The position numbers and the translations under genes were made by a program. A model generated the notes under the pieces. That model made no database searches. It saw only the letters and a program-made list of their open reading frames with translations, and was not told the DNA's origin. This document shows, piece by piece, positions 56,201 to 62,384 of a DNA stretch of 64,000 nt. Numbering within the stretch: position 1 is the first letter of the stretch; each line of letters opens with the position of its first letter. Origin of the DNA: Salinibacter sp. 10B (GTDB lineage: Bacteria; Bacteroidota; Rhodothermia; Rhodothermales; Salinibacteraceae); NCBI RefSeq assembly GCF_002954405.1, contig NZ_MQWC01000004.1:3824613-3888612 (forward strand). Reading direction: 5' to 3'.

Positions 56201-57569
56201 CCGCGAACTCACCAGCTACGTGGTGCCGTACGGCGCTGAACTTACCGTTGAGGAGGAGGCCGAGGTGGAGGAGGGAGATGTTCTCGCCAGCTGGGACCCC
56301 TACAACAGCCTCATCCTCACGGAGGCCACGGGGACGGTGCGCTTCGAGGATGTCATCGAAGGCACGACCTACCGGGAAGAGACCGACGAGCAGACCGGCC
56401 ACAAGGAGAAGGTCATTGTGGAGAGTCGGGAGCGCACCCTTACTCCGACGATCGTCGTCGAGACCGACGACGGCGACGAGCGAGACTACAACATGCCGGT
56501 CGACGCCCGTATCCAGGTGGATGAGGGCGATAAGGTGCAGGCCGGACAGACCCTCGCGAAGATGCCGCGCCAGGCCGCACAAACCAGCGACATTACCGGG
56601 GGTCTGCCGCGCGTCGAGGAGCTTTTCGAGGCCCGCACCCCCGACGAACCGGCCGAGGTCAGCGAGATCGACGGCATTGTGAGCTTCGGCGACCGGAAGC
56701 GCGGTTCGCAGGAGGTCATCGTCACGAGCCGCGACGGGGAGATGGAGAAGAGCTACATGGTTTCTCTCTCCAAGCACATGCTCGTCCATGAGGGCGACTA
56801 CGTGGAGGCCGGCGACCGGCTTTCGGACGGCCAGATTGCCCCGCACGACATCCTGTCAATCAAGGGGCCGCGCGCCGTGCAGGAGCACCTCCTCAACGAA
56901 GTGCAGGAGGTTTACCGCCTCCAGGGCGTCGACATCGACGACAAACACTTCGAGGTTGTGATCCGGCAGATGATGAAGCGGGTGAACATTACCTCGCCGG
57001 GCGACACCCACTTCCTCGAAGAGGACGTGGTGGATCGCCAGAAGATGGCCGAGGCCAACGACGAGCTCTACGACAAGTTTGTCGTAACCGACCCGAGCGA
57101 TGCCGACGTGAAGATCGGCGAGATCATCAGTCGGCGGCGACTCCGAGAGCTGAACTCCGACCTGAAGCGGGAAGACAAGCCGGAGATTGAGGTTCGTGAG
57201 GCTCGGCCTGCTGTGGGTGAGCCGGTCCTGCTTGGCATCACGAAGGCGTCGCTTGCGACCGACTCCTTCATCTCGGCGGCCTCCTTTCAGGAGACGACGA
57301 AGGTGCTCACGAACGCGGCCATCGAGGCGAAGACCGACCCGCTCGACGGGCTCAAGGAGAACGTCATCGTGGGCCACTCGATTCCGGCCGGAACGGGACA
57401 GCGGCAGTATCGCGACCTCGTGGTGGGCTCGAAGTCCGAACTCGAGGAACTGCAGGCGGCCATTGGCGGCGACGGCGAGGCGGCCGGTGGCGATGGAGCT
57501 GCCGGCGACGGCGCGCCGAGCGAGGACGAGGTTGAGCAAATCGAGGCCTCCTCTGAGTCGGAGGGATAA
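53226..57569 (+). CDS. rpoC: DNA-directed RNA polymerase subunit beta'
   Basis: RpoC of 1447 residues. The zinc ribbon is CHCGKYKR...CDRCGVEVT near residues 64-85. The active-site Mg loop is NADFDGDQM near 477. The second zinc site is in CGTLRG and [14 protein letters not shown] near 890. The trigger-loop and bridge-helix parts are intact. The last ~35 residues form a Gly/Asp/Glu-rich tail containing GDGAPS, which also occurs in the FadE tail. A strong terminator follows 43 bases after the stop. Confidence 0.98.
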
Positions 57570-57611: not shown

Positions 57612-57646
57612 AAGGCCCCAGCACCTTGTGGTGTTGGGGCCTTTTT
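57612..57646 (+). terminator. Intrinsic terminator after rpoC
   Basis: AAGGCCCCAGCACC, loop TTGT, then GGTGTTGGGGCCTT: a 14-bp stem with one G-U pair, running straight into TTTTT. It closes the secE-to-rpoC block. Confidence 0.92.
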
Positions 57647-57906: not shown

Positions 57907-59364
57907 ATGACGATCTTTGATGCGCTGGTGCTGTTGGGGGCCGCCTTCGGAATTGGAGGGCTCGTCGCTGGGGGAGAGGGTCTCCGACGGATGGGCGTGT
58001 CGGCCACCGGGACGCGACGGATTGTTCATGCCGGAGTGTGTGTTTTCGTCGCCGCCGCGCCCTGGGCGTTCTCCGGGCCGGGTCCCCTATATCTCCTTGC
58101 GGGAGGCTTCGTTCTAGTCAATGCGGGCGCGTGGGGACTCGGCTGGTGGCCGAGTGTGCACGCTGCTCGGCCGTCGAGTTGGGGCACCATCGCGCTCCCC
58201 GCGGCCGTGCTGCCGGCCTTGGCTGTTACGTGGAGCGCGGCGCCCAGTCGAATTCCCCTCTTTCAGATCGCGTTTCTAGTAGTTGGACTGGCCGATCCAG
58301 TCGCGGCCTGGGTGGGGCAGCAGTACGGACAGCGGCGTCTTACGGACTCGGCAACCCTGTGGGGGATCTTGGCCTTTGCGGGAAGTGCATTCCTGCTCGT
58401 GACACTTGTCCTTCAGGGAACGGGGAAGCCCTTGGCGTATGCGGTGTCCGTTGCCGTACTGGTTGCCGTGGCAGCCACGACGGTGGAGGCAATCAGTCAG
58501 AACGGATGGGACAACCTCACCGTCGTCATTGCGATTCTTTCGGTACTGGTGCCGGTATGGGAGGGGACTGTGCCTCTTGTTCACATGGCAGGAGCGATGG
58601 CGGTGGGGGCAGGCGTTGGAGCAGGGGCGTGGTGGGCAGGGACGCTCGACGGGCCCGGAGCATCCGCGGGGGCCCTCTTCGCAGCGTCCCTTGTCGGTCT
58701 CGGCGGCGCTCCGTGGGCCGTGCCCGCGCTCGCGTTCTTCGTTCTGTCGAGTGCGTTGTCCGCCCTTCCGGCACGGGATGATAGGGGACCGGCCCCAGAT
58801 GTTCGGCGCACACTTCGTCAGGTGATGGCCAATGGAGGAGGGGCCTGGGCGCTTCTCCTCATTTGCGCCCTTGGAGCCGGAGGAACGGTCCTTTGTGCAG
58901 GCTGCTACGCAGGATTTCTCGGCGCTCTGGCGTCCGCCGCGGCCGACACCTGGGCGACCGAAGTGGGAACGCGATACGCCGGACGTCCTGTTTCGCTGAT
59001 CGATGGAATGCGGGTATCGAGGGGGGCATCGGGGGCAATTTCCGTGCTTGGGACCGTTGCGGCTCTTTTGGGGGCCGCCACCGTGGCCCTCGCTGCTCAC
59101 GTGTCGGCCTCCGGGGATCTCCTTGGGGCAGTACCGGTGGGAGGAATCATCGGGGCCGGCCTGATTGGGATGGGATGCGATAGTCTCGTGGGGGCGACGC
59201 TCCAGGCGCAGTACGCGCCGCGGGCAGGAACGGCAGCGCCCGAGCGCCCAGCTACGCCAACGGAACGGCCGGTTCGTGGGTGGGGGATGGTGGACAACGA
59301 CGTGGTGAATGGGATCGGGTCCACCGGAGGCGCAATCGCGGCTGTGCTTTTCTGGCTGATATAG
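57907..59364 (+). CDS. Fusion of phytol/dolichol-kinase-like half with DUF92 (phytyl-phosphate-kinase-like) half
   Basis: A polytopic membrane protein of 485 residues in two homologous-looking halves of different families. The N half (to ~245) resembles SEC59/VTE5-type isoprenoid-alcohol kinases: RRIVHAGVCV, GLADPVAAWVGQQYG and EAISQNGWDNLTV. The C half (from ~300) is DUF92: QVMANGGGAWALL, ASAAADTWATEVGT, GASGAISVLGT, DSLVGATLQAQY and VDNDVVNGI. In plants VTE5 makes phytyl phosphate and VTE6 (DUF92) phytyl diphosphate, so the fusion could do both steps on phytol, geranylgeraniol or a polyprenol. The substrate and the role are inferred. It stands alone, 260 bases after the rpoC terminator. Confidence 0.78.
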   Translation: MTIFDALVLLGAAFGIGGLVAGGEGLRRMGVSATGTRRIVHAGVCVFVAAAPWAFSGPGPLYLLAGGFVLVNAGAWGLGWWPSVHAARPSSWGTIALPAAVLPALAVTWSAAPSRIPLFQIAFLVVGLADPVAAWVGQQYGQRRLTDSATLWGILAFAGSAFLLVTLVLQGTGKPLAYAVSVAVLVAVAATTVEAISQNGWDNLTVVIAILSVLVPVWEGTVPLVHMAGAMAVGAGVGAGAWWAGTLDGPGASAGALFAASLVGLGGAPWAVPALAFFVLSSALSALPARDDRGPAPDVRRTLRQVMANGGGAWALLLICALGAGGTVLCAGCYAGFLGALASAAADTWATEVGTRYAGRPVSLIDGMRVSRGASGAISVLGTVAALLGAATVALAAHVSASGDLLGAVPVGGIIGAGLIGMGCDSLVGATLQAQYAPRAGTAAPERPATPTERPVRGWGMVDNDVVNGIGSTGGAIAAVLFWLI

Positions 59365-60974: not shown

Positions 60975-62384
60975 ATGTCTGCTGTTCCTCCTGCTCGCGT
61001 TCGGGCTCTCAACGATGCCGCCGTTCGGGGCACGCGCCGGTACGTTCTGTACTGGATGCAGCAGTCGCAGCGGGCCCAGCACAACCCCGCATTGGACTAT
61101 GCCATTCAGCGGGCCAACGACTTGGGGAAGCCGCTCCTCGTCGTCTTTGGGCTGACGGACGACTATCCGGAGGCCAATCGTCGTCATTACACGTTCATGC
61201 TCGAGGGGCTCCGAGAGACGCAGGAGGCGATGCAAGAGCGGGGAGTCATGATGGTTGTGCGTCACGGGGCGCCCGATGCGGTCGCGCTGTCGTATGCGGA
61301 TGCCGCCGCGGTGCTGGTGACCGATCGGGGATACCTGCGTCATCAGAAGCGGTGGCGGCGACGGGTAGCCGATGAAGCATCCTGTCTGGTGACGGAAGTG
61401 GAAGGGGACGTAGTGGTGCCGGTCGAGACGGTCACCGACAAGGCAGAGTACGCCGCCCGCACGATCCGTCCGAAGATTCACGAGCACCTCGACCGGTTTC
61501 TTGCGCTTCCTGAGCCGGCTTCAGTTCGCATTCCGTCGATGGACCTAGAGGTGGACGACGGCCTCGTCCTCAACAATGTAGAGGCGGTTGCAGACCAACT
61601 GGACCTGGATGACAGCGTGGCTCCTGTCCGGGCTCTGTACCGCGGCGGCTTTTCGGAAGCGGAGGCGATTCTGGAGTCTTTCCAGCAGAAGCACCTGGAC
61701 GGCTACGACGAGAACCGAAATCAGGTGCAGTCGAGTGCGGTTTCGCACATGAGCAAGTATCTGCACTTTGGACAGATCTCGCCGGTGTGGCTGGCCCAGC
61801 AGATCCAAGAGACGGAGGCGCCGGAGGAGGACATTGAGTCCTACCTTGAAGAGCTGATTGTTCGACGAGAGCTGGCCGTCAACCACGTACATTTTCGGCC
61901 GGATACCTACGACGACTTCGCGTGCCTTCCAGAGTGGGCGCGCGAGACGCTCACCGATCATGCCGACGATGAGCGCGAGCATGTGTACACCCAGACGGAG
62001 TTGGAGGGAAGCAATACACACGATCCGTACTGGAACGCCGCGATGAAGGAGATGCGAGAGACCGGTTACATGCATAACTACATGCGCATGTACTGGGGCA
62101 AGAAAATTCTGGAATGGTCTCCTGATCCCCAAACGGCCTTTGAATGGACGCTGGCGCTCAATAACCGATATTTTCTGGATGGACGGGATCCAAACTCTTA
62201 CGCAAATGTGGCCTGGGTCTTCGGGCTACACGACCGCGGCTGGAAGGAGCGTCCAGTGTACGGGAAGGTGCGGTACATGAGTAAGGGGGGGCTTGAGCGG
62301 AAGGCCGACCCCGACGCTTACGTGGAAAAAGTAGATCGCCTGTCGGCTGAGGCACAGGCTCCCTCCGAACGGAATCGTGGATGA
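60975..62384 (+). CDS. Class II CPD photolyase
   Basis: FAD-dependent, light-driven repair of cyclobutane pyrimidine dimers. The 469-residue sequence is close in pattern to archaeal and animal class II enzymes: VLYWMQQSQRAQHNPAL, EYAARTIRPKIHEHL, YLHFGQISPVWLAQQI, GYMHNYMRMYWGKKILEW and RYFLDGRDPNSYANVAW. A role in solar brines with strong sunlight fits. It overlaps the start of the small membrane-protein gene by four bases. Confidence 0.93.
   Translation: MSAVPPARVRALNDAAVRGTRRYVLYWMQQSQRAQHNPALDYAIQRANDLGKPLLVVFGLTDDYPEANRRHYTFMLEGLRETQEAMQERGVMMVVRHGAPDAVALSYADAAAVLVTDRGYLRHQKRWRRRVADEASCLVTEVEGDVVVPVETVTDKAEYAARTIRPKIHEHLDRFLALPEPASVRIPSMDLEVDDGLVLNNVEAVADQLDLDDSVAPVRALYRGGFSEAEAILESFQQKHLDGYDENRNQVQSSAVSHMSKYLHFGQISPVWLAQQIQETEAPEEDIESYLEELIVRRELAVNHVHFRPDTYDDFACLPEWARETLTDHADDEREHVYTQTELEGSNTHDPYWNAAMKEMRETGYMHNYMRMYWGKKILEWSPDPQTAFEWTLALNNRYFLDGRDPNSYANVAWVFGLHDRGWKERPVYGKVRYMSKGGLERKADPDAYVEKVDRLSAEAQAPSERNRG

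Follow-up and report, generated by a model that had tools for sequence, protein, structure and literature searches.

A tandem SEC59/VTE5-like and DUF92 membrane protein of Salinibacter lacks conserved loop residues in both of its putative kinase halves

In the window, by which we mean the whole 64,000-nucleotide stretch of Salinibacter sp. 10B DNA that was analysed, the plus strand holds an intact open reading frame of 485 amino acids at positions 57907-59364, with an ATG at 57907 and a stop codon ending at 59364. Relatives carry end-to-end homologues at 45-53% identity (over the whole length, about 50% within Salinibacter and 36-49% within the order Rhodothermales), and since the fused frame is conserved from end to end, it is not a product of chance. 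The gene lies downstream of rpoC, which ends at 57569, and the hairpin and T run between the two, GGCCCCAGCACC-TTGT-GGTGTTGGGGCC-TTTTT, read from the sequence and absent from the terminator scan list, suggest that transcription does not simply run on from rpoC into the gene. Next downstream comes a GltP/DctA-like symporter gene, and beyond it, at 60975-62384, lies a frame that by eye resembles a DNA photolyase/cryptochrome. The features of the locus are as follows.

57614..57645, plus strand: hairpin and T run after rpoC
57907..59364, plus strand: whole frame, SEC59/VTE5-like half followed by DUF92 half (full-length homologues; AlphaFold pLDDT 86, pTM 0.87)
57907..58584, plus strand: N half, residues 1-226, predicted membrane domain of CdsA/SEC59 fold with predicted helices from H3-28 to H202-218 (profile, model)
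58015..58029, plus strand: R37 R38 .. H41, equivalent of the PfPolK Arg-Lys-His clamp
58294..58317, plus strand: D130-x2-A133-x3-G137, opening part of the CTP motif, retained (alignment)
58351..58365, plus strand: A149-T150-L151-W152-G153, the K-[ST]-x-x-G segment of the CTP motif, which has Ala instead of Lys (alignment)
58486..58515, plus strand: E194 and G200-x-D202-N203, conserved acidic residues in the N-half pocket, all retained (alignment)
58612..59325, plus strand: C half, residues 236-473, DUF92 (PF01940), VTE6-like by family
58762..58815, plus strand: cytoplasmic loop of DUF92, residues 286-303, ...EKGSQRD in relatives, Lys and Asp lost here (alignment; pLDDT below 50 at 291-298)
58819..58839, plus strand: QVMANGG, residues 305-311, invariant DUF92 stretch, intact (Q305 and N309 invariant in 125 proteins)
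58942..58962, plus strand: ADTWATE, residues 346-352, invariant DUF92 stretch, intact (D347, T348 and E352 invariant in 125 proteins)
59179..59310, plus strand: D425-S426...Q433 and N464-D465-x2-N468, DUF92 pocket residues, intact here (alignment of 125 fused proteins)

The initial annotation had assigned the C half to DUF92, and the assignment was borne out, with PF01940 matching at E 1.5e-42 and 146.1 bits against a gathering cut-off of 27.5, while TIGR00297 stays under its own cut-off (61 versus 205.85 bits). In the full AlphaFold model this half aligns with CdsA at Z 6.3 over 129 residues, a DUF92 profile matches CdsA at E 2.1e-4, and the profile alignment places D425 opposite the Asp of the CdsA GDLxES motif. 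The pocket pattern of the family (QVxANGG, ADTW.TE, DS..G..Q and N..xN) is complete in the window protein. The EK..RD loop before QVxANGG, a pattern that reflects conservation in relatives and is not a curated DUF92 criterion, has lost its Lys and Asp. PF01940 corresponds to COG1836 (PMC5898192). Plant VTE6, a phytyl-phosphate kinase, is a COG1836 protein and thus belongs to the same family as the C half; it stands alone in plants and cyanobacteria, whereas the DUF92 domain described here is fused and its loop altered. Very few genes are known for prenyl-phosphate kinases.

The Pfam check proposed for both halves succeeded for the C half only, as the N half matched no Pfam or NCBIfam model. 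N halves of relatives with intact motifs likewise gave no match above cut-off in these libraries, one Ignavibacterial N half reaching PF01148 weakly (E 0.013), so this branch lies outside their coverage. When 18 N halves were combined into a profile, it aligned with CdsA from the same genomes across 182 columns (at E 1.3e-4, or E 2.3e-5 with a profile from all fused proteins), against E 0.08 or worse in 25 controls comprising shuffled columns, reversed profiles and unrelated membrane proteins. This alignment pairs ADPVAAWVG of the N half with TDIFAYYVG of CdsA, and ATLWG with NKTWEG. Structure prediction, also proposed at the outset, led to the same place: the AlphaFold model of the N half (pLDDT 92.6) finds CdsA in the PDB with VIA-align as the sole match above the rest, at a Z value, moderate for a helical protein, of 9.2 over 160 residues and 3.6 A, the next and unrelated match reaching 7.0. 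With Foldseek alone, neither the full model nor the N half matched any PDB entry significantly, a PDB sequence search with either half found no relative, and DOLK, VTE5 and VTE6 structures were not among the structural matches, an absence that proves nothing. Judged by profile comparison, the AlphaFold model and conserved signature residues, the N half is related to the CdsA/SEC59 fold. We do not claim direct homology of the two halves with each other, for which hhalign gave E 0.013-0.018, no better than a reversed control (0.025).

Both halves share their fold and D-x2-A-x3-G with CdsA, the CDP-diacylglycerol synthase (PDB 4q2e, 4q2g), and the profile and fold matches would fit an N half that acts as a CDP-alcohol synthase of the CDP-diglyceride type. 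We regard this as very improbable. The HGGxxDRxD signature is present in the genome's own CdsA and absent from both halves, as is the K-T-x-E-G that CdsA of the same genomes carries; the N half displays instead the polyprenol-kinase clamp R-x3-H and a D-N pair. Besides, the genome already has one normal CdsA, encoded away from the fusion gene.

Within the wider fold, we infer a link of the N half to kinases from its signature residues and from a published HHpred result on archaeal proteins. Makarova et al. 2015 reported that DUF92 matches PF01148 by HHpred and that some archaeal DUF92 proteins carry an N-terminal SEC59-like domain of the same family, and predicted an isoprenoid kinase role for these SEC59-DUF92 proteins (PMC5898192). 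The Arg-Lys-His clamp described for PfPolK (PMC10849223) has its counterpart in R37, R38 and H41 of the N half, which follow the pattern R-[KR]-x2-H and are found in 10 of 10 Salinibacter proteins and, outside the genus, in 114 of 115 for the Arg and 113 of 115 for the His. With the SEC59/VTE5 polyprenol kinases the N half thus shares the clamp, along with about eight membrane helices and the CTP-using fold; those enzymes are stand-alone, whereas the N half is fused, lacks the CTP-loop Lys and has a putative activity. The dolichol kinase CTP motif, D-x2-A-x3-G-x3-G-x8-K-K-T-x-E-G (PMC5853391), is found in part, with D130, A133, G137, G141, T150 and G153 present, Ala149 in place of the invariant Lys and Trp152 at the Glu position. 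The initial annotation had seen a VTE5/SEC59 pattern here and had named beforehand, as evidence against its reading, an N half without the kinase residues; the fold, the clamp, D130, E194 and D202-N203 uphold the pattern and the D, A, G and T of the motif remain, but the loop Lys and Glu are gone. Because the CTP motif fails at a defining feature, we treat the N half as an apparently SEC59/VTE5-descended domain of uncertain activity and do not class it as a polyprenol kinase.

The residue counts rest on 125 distinct fused proteins, 10 from Salinibacter and 115 from outside the genus. Retained in all ten Salinibacter members and nearly all others are R37, H41, D130, A133, G137, E194, D202 and N203 of the N half and N309, D347, E352, D425, Q433, N464 and N468 of the C half; G153 is likewise kept in the ten. 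The Glu position of the CTP motif is variable everywhere, so the Lys alone is telling: outside Salinibacter, 112 of 115 proteins have Lys there and the other 3 Arg; inside the genus the residue is Ala in seven and Ser in three of ten. In the DUF92 loop, the Lys occurs in 106 of 115 proteins outside Salinibacter versus none of ten inside, and the Asp position holds Asp in 106 and Asn in 8 of the 115 versus neither in the ten; such conservation suggests that both residues matter. A tree of the C halves unites the ten Lys-less proteins in one clade (support 91); the neighbouring DUF92-only proteins come from the same family and have altered loops as well. Since both halves lack conserved loop residues in Salinibacter, double-kinase activity of the window copy cannot be assumed. 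The claim that one chain performs both phosphorylations stands, accordingly, as a two-domain reading, but is weakened by the residues missing from both loops.

These matched losses, together with a hydrophobic pocket that is conserved, might also mean that the whole protein has left kinase chemistry in Salinibacter and serves prenyl phosphates in another membrane role, such as binding or transport. The pocket residue Asp465 of DUF92, the second Asp of its pocket, is Asn or His in six of the ten Salinibacter members, which would fit such a change. Most of the presumed metal and clamp residues are nonetheless kept, and nothing speaks positively for another role, so that we consider this unlikely.

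A lysine-poor or acidic proteome finds no support as the source of the loss, as the state of the residue does not follow lysine content or net charge in 20-kb samples. CdsA shares the motif, and its K-T-x-E-G is intact in every one of the 13 Salinibacter genomes; general composition or salt adaptation is therefore not the cause. Lys/K+ switches are known in other systems, and one may speculate that K+ of the KCl-rich cytoplasm takes the place of the lysines; a general K+-for-Lys rule fits poorly with the unaltered CdsA motif of these cells. We hold it for a distant prospect that both Salinibacter sites have exchanged the phosphate-handling Lys for bound K+ or a different donor, or that the protein has become a prenyl-phosphate binder or carrier. 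If so, parallel changes would have remodelled two active sites of the same chain and left the pocket conserved.

Both halves are under purifying selection. For Salinibacter pairs with dS of 0.4-2, NG86 dN/dS is 0.20-0.26 in the N half and 0.17-0.31 in the C half, and identity within the genus is 0.52 and 0.545, respectively. The similar identity and dN/dS of the two halves rule out the N half as a decaying relic. A conserved pocket under selection points to a function, probably still on prenyl substrates.

The SEC59-DUF92 fusion is widespread in the FCB group, in phototrophs (green sulfur bacteria) and non-phototrophs alike. DUF92 occurs in 177 of the 296 genomes of the phylum in our sample, which is rich in one family that clusters with Chlorobium in the tree; among the 150 DUF92 matches listed, 107 lie in frames of at least 450 codons, the length of the fusion, and 43 in frames below 320. 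An alignment-based search of genome contigs yielded 80 named loci, a single-protein query of the contigs found no related locus, and a plasmid collection gave no DUF92 match. The named fused homologues come from Rhodothermales, Chlorobiota, Ignavibacteriota, Neomarinimicrobiota (Marinimicrobia), KSB1 and Calditrichota. Those of Chlorobium, Ignavibacteriales, Neomarinimicrobiota, KSB1, Calditrichota and Rhodothermales have the two domains in the same order, about 490-530 amino acids and the same pocket residues, and differ in keeping the N-half Lys/Arg (115 of 115) and, nearly always, the DUF92-loop Lys and Asp/Asn.

Both the fusion architecture and the superfamily assignment were already known from archaea. 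The arCOG02245 fusions, such as Mbar_A3310 of Methanosarcina barkeri, have a SEC59-like N-terminal and a COG1836/DUF92 C-terminal domain of the cytidylyltransferase superfamily in one chain, the order also found in the window protein; they differ in being archaeal, and the comparison is with their published description rather than by sequence alignment. That description reports two presumed catalytic aspartates conserved in both domains and does not discuss the loop lysines (PMC5898192). The initial annotation had taken a fusion in a non-photosynthetic halophile as a sign of prenol salvage; an architecture published for archaea and spread across the FCB group regardless of phototrophy is by itself no pointer in that direction. 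The suggested supply of quinones or carotenoids fared no better, as the neighbourhood of the window gene, formed by rpoC and the GltP/DctA-like symporter, holds no hint of quinone, carotenoid or prenol-salvage functions. Among the 80 loci, conserved neighbours are lineage-specific, a GltP/DctA-like symporter often following the gene in Rhodothermales, and no isoprenoid gene is conserved beside the fusion.

In one Salinibacter genome, 99% complete, the fusion gene is a pseudogene (L062 1127-1712, G007:C16) that lacks about 900 bases and has a broken frame, set between flanks 84% identical to another congener, and the gene is therefore dispensable in that species. Several genera of the same family carry DUF92 alone (L063, L064, L070, L071, L072), and further DUF92-only genes occur in the same order (L065, L068, L069). 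These lineages are nested among fused ones, some with a changed EK..RD, which suggests loss of the N half or re-splitting. Given that DUF92 works without an N half in the same family and order, and that the N-half CTP-loop Lys is lost, the N half might be catalytically silent in the window protein, conserved as a domain for prenyl binding, folding or dimerisation, with the DUF92 half alone still phosphorylating prenyl monophosphates. The DUF92 half, however, also lacks conserved loop residues, and D130, D202 and the clamp of the N half are kept in 10 of 10, which makes us doubtful of this arrangement, if less so than of a departure from kinase chemistry.

On the evidence above, we consider it fairly probable that the window protein is a derived form of a tandem of two membrane-embedded domains with the CTP-using CdsA/SEC59 fold, whose ancestral role was that of a two-step prenol kinase. 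The N half would descend from a SEC59/VTE5-type prenol kinase converting an alcohol into its monophosphate, and the C half would be a DUF92/VTE6-type prenyl-phosphate kinase domain converting the monophosphate into the diphosphate. Plant VTE5 and VTE6 carry out these two phosphorylations, with CTP preferred; by analogy, an ancestral two-step phosphorylation is plausible, the ancestor most likely having taken a prenol through both CTP-dependent transfers, and the fusion is an architecture of long standing that is common in the FCB group and also occurs in some archaea. In the Salinibacter form, both halves have lost conserved loop residues with a presumed role in handling the CTP phosphates; the rest of the pocket is retained, and both halves stay under purifying selection. 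Prenyl substrate binding would be expected to persist, and CTP-dependent transfer, at least in the N half, would be weakened, use a changed donor or be rescued by other residues; R143 and R144, basic residues of the N-half loop, may stand in for the lost Lys.

The initial annotation had gone further, proposing a fully active polypeptide that uses CTP for both phosphorylations of an isoprenoid alcohol, which would then be salvaged into quinones, carotenoids or lipids; we think this less likely than not. In its favour, the protein has both domains in conserved form and keeps most pocket residues, selection is purifying, no other SEC59-like domain was found in the genome, and three UbiA-type prenyltransferases, none of them beside the fusion gene, could consume a prenyl diphosphate. 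The genus-wide loss of the N-half Lys and Glu position and of the DUF92-loop Lys and Asp tells against it, as does the lack of adjoining pathway genes, and the truncated copy and DUF92-only genera described above argue against a required two-step route. The same genome encodes a geranylgeranyl-reductase-like FAD protein (L165, G000:C4, about 979881-980774; 125.7 bits, below the curated cut-off), which adjoins a methyltransferase-like frame and is not next to the fusion gene.

To our knowledge, bacterial SEC59-DUF92 fusions have never been assayed, and a chain that unites both domains lends itself to the study of two-step salvage. What is new here is the loss of the CTP-loop Lys of the N half, along with that of the Lys and Asp of the DUF92 loop; for the N-half Lys it is confined to Salinibacter among the 125 fused proteins. 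The Salinibacter-type variant offers a natural experiment that may show which loop residues are needed for the chemistry, and warns that not every SEC59-DUF92 fusion should be called an active double kinase.

Two further observations concern other Rhodothermales. One genome that also has the fusion encodes, on the minus strand, a separate SEC59-like protein of about 477 amino acids with an intact KKSLEGS (L073, G057:C1:3722000-3726500). In three members of different families (G032:C36, G036:C154 and G037:C1), cdsA and the DUF92 gene are about 5-8 kb apart, by chance or through loose linkage.
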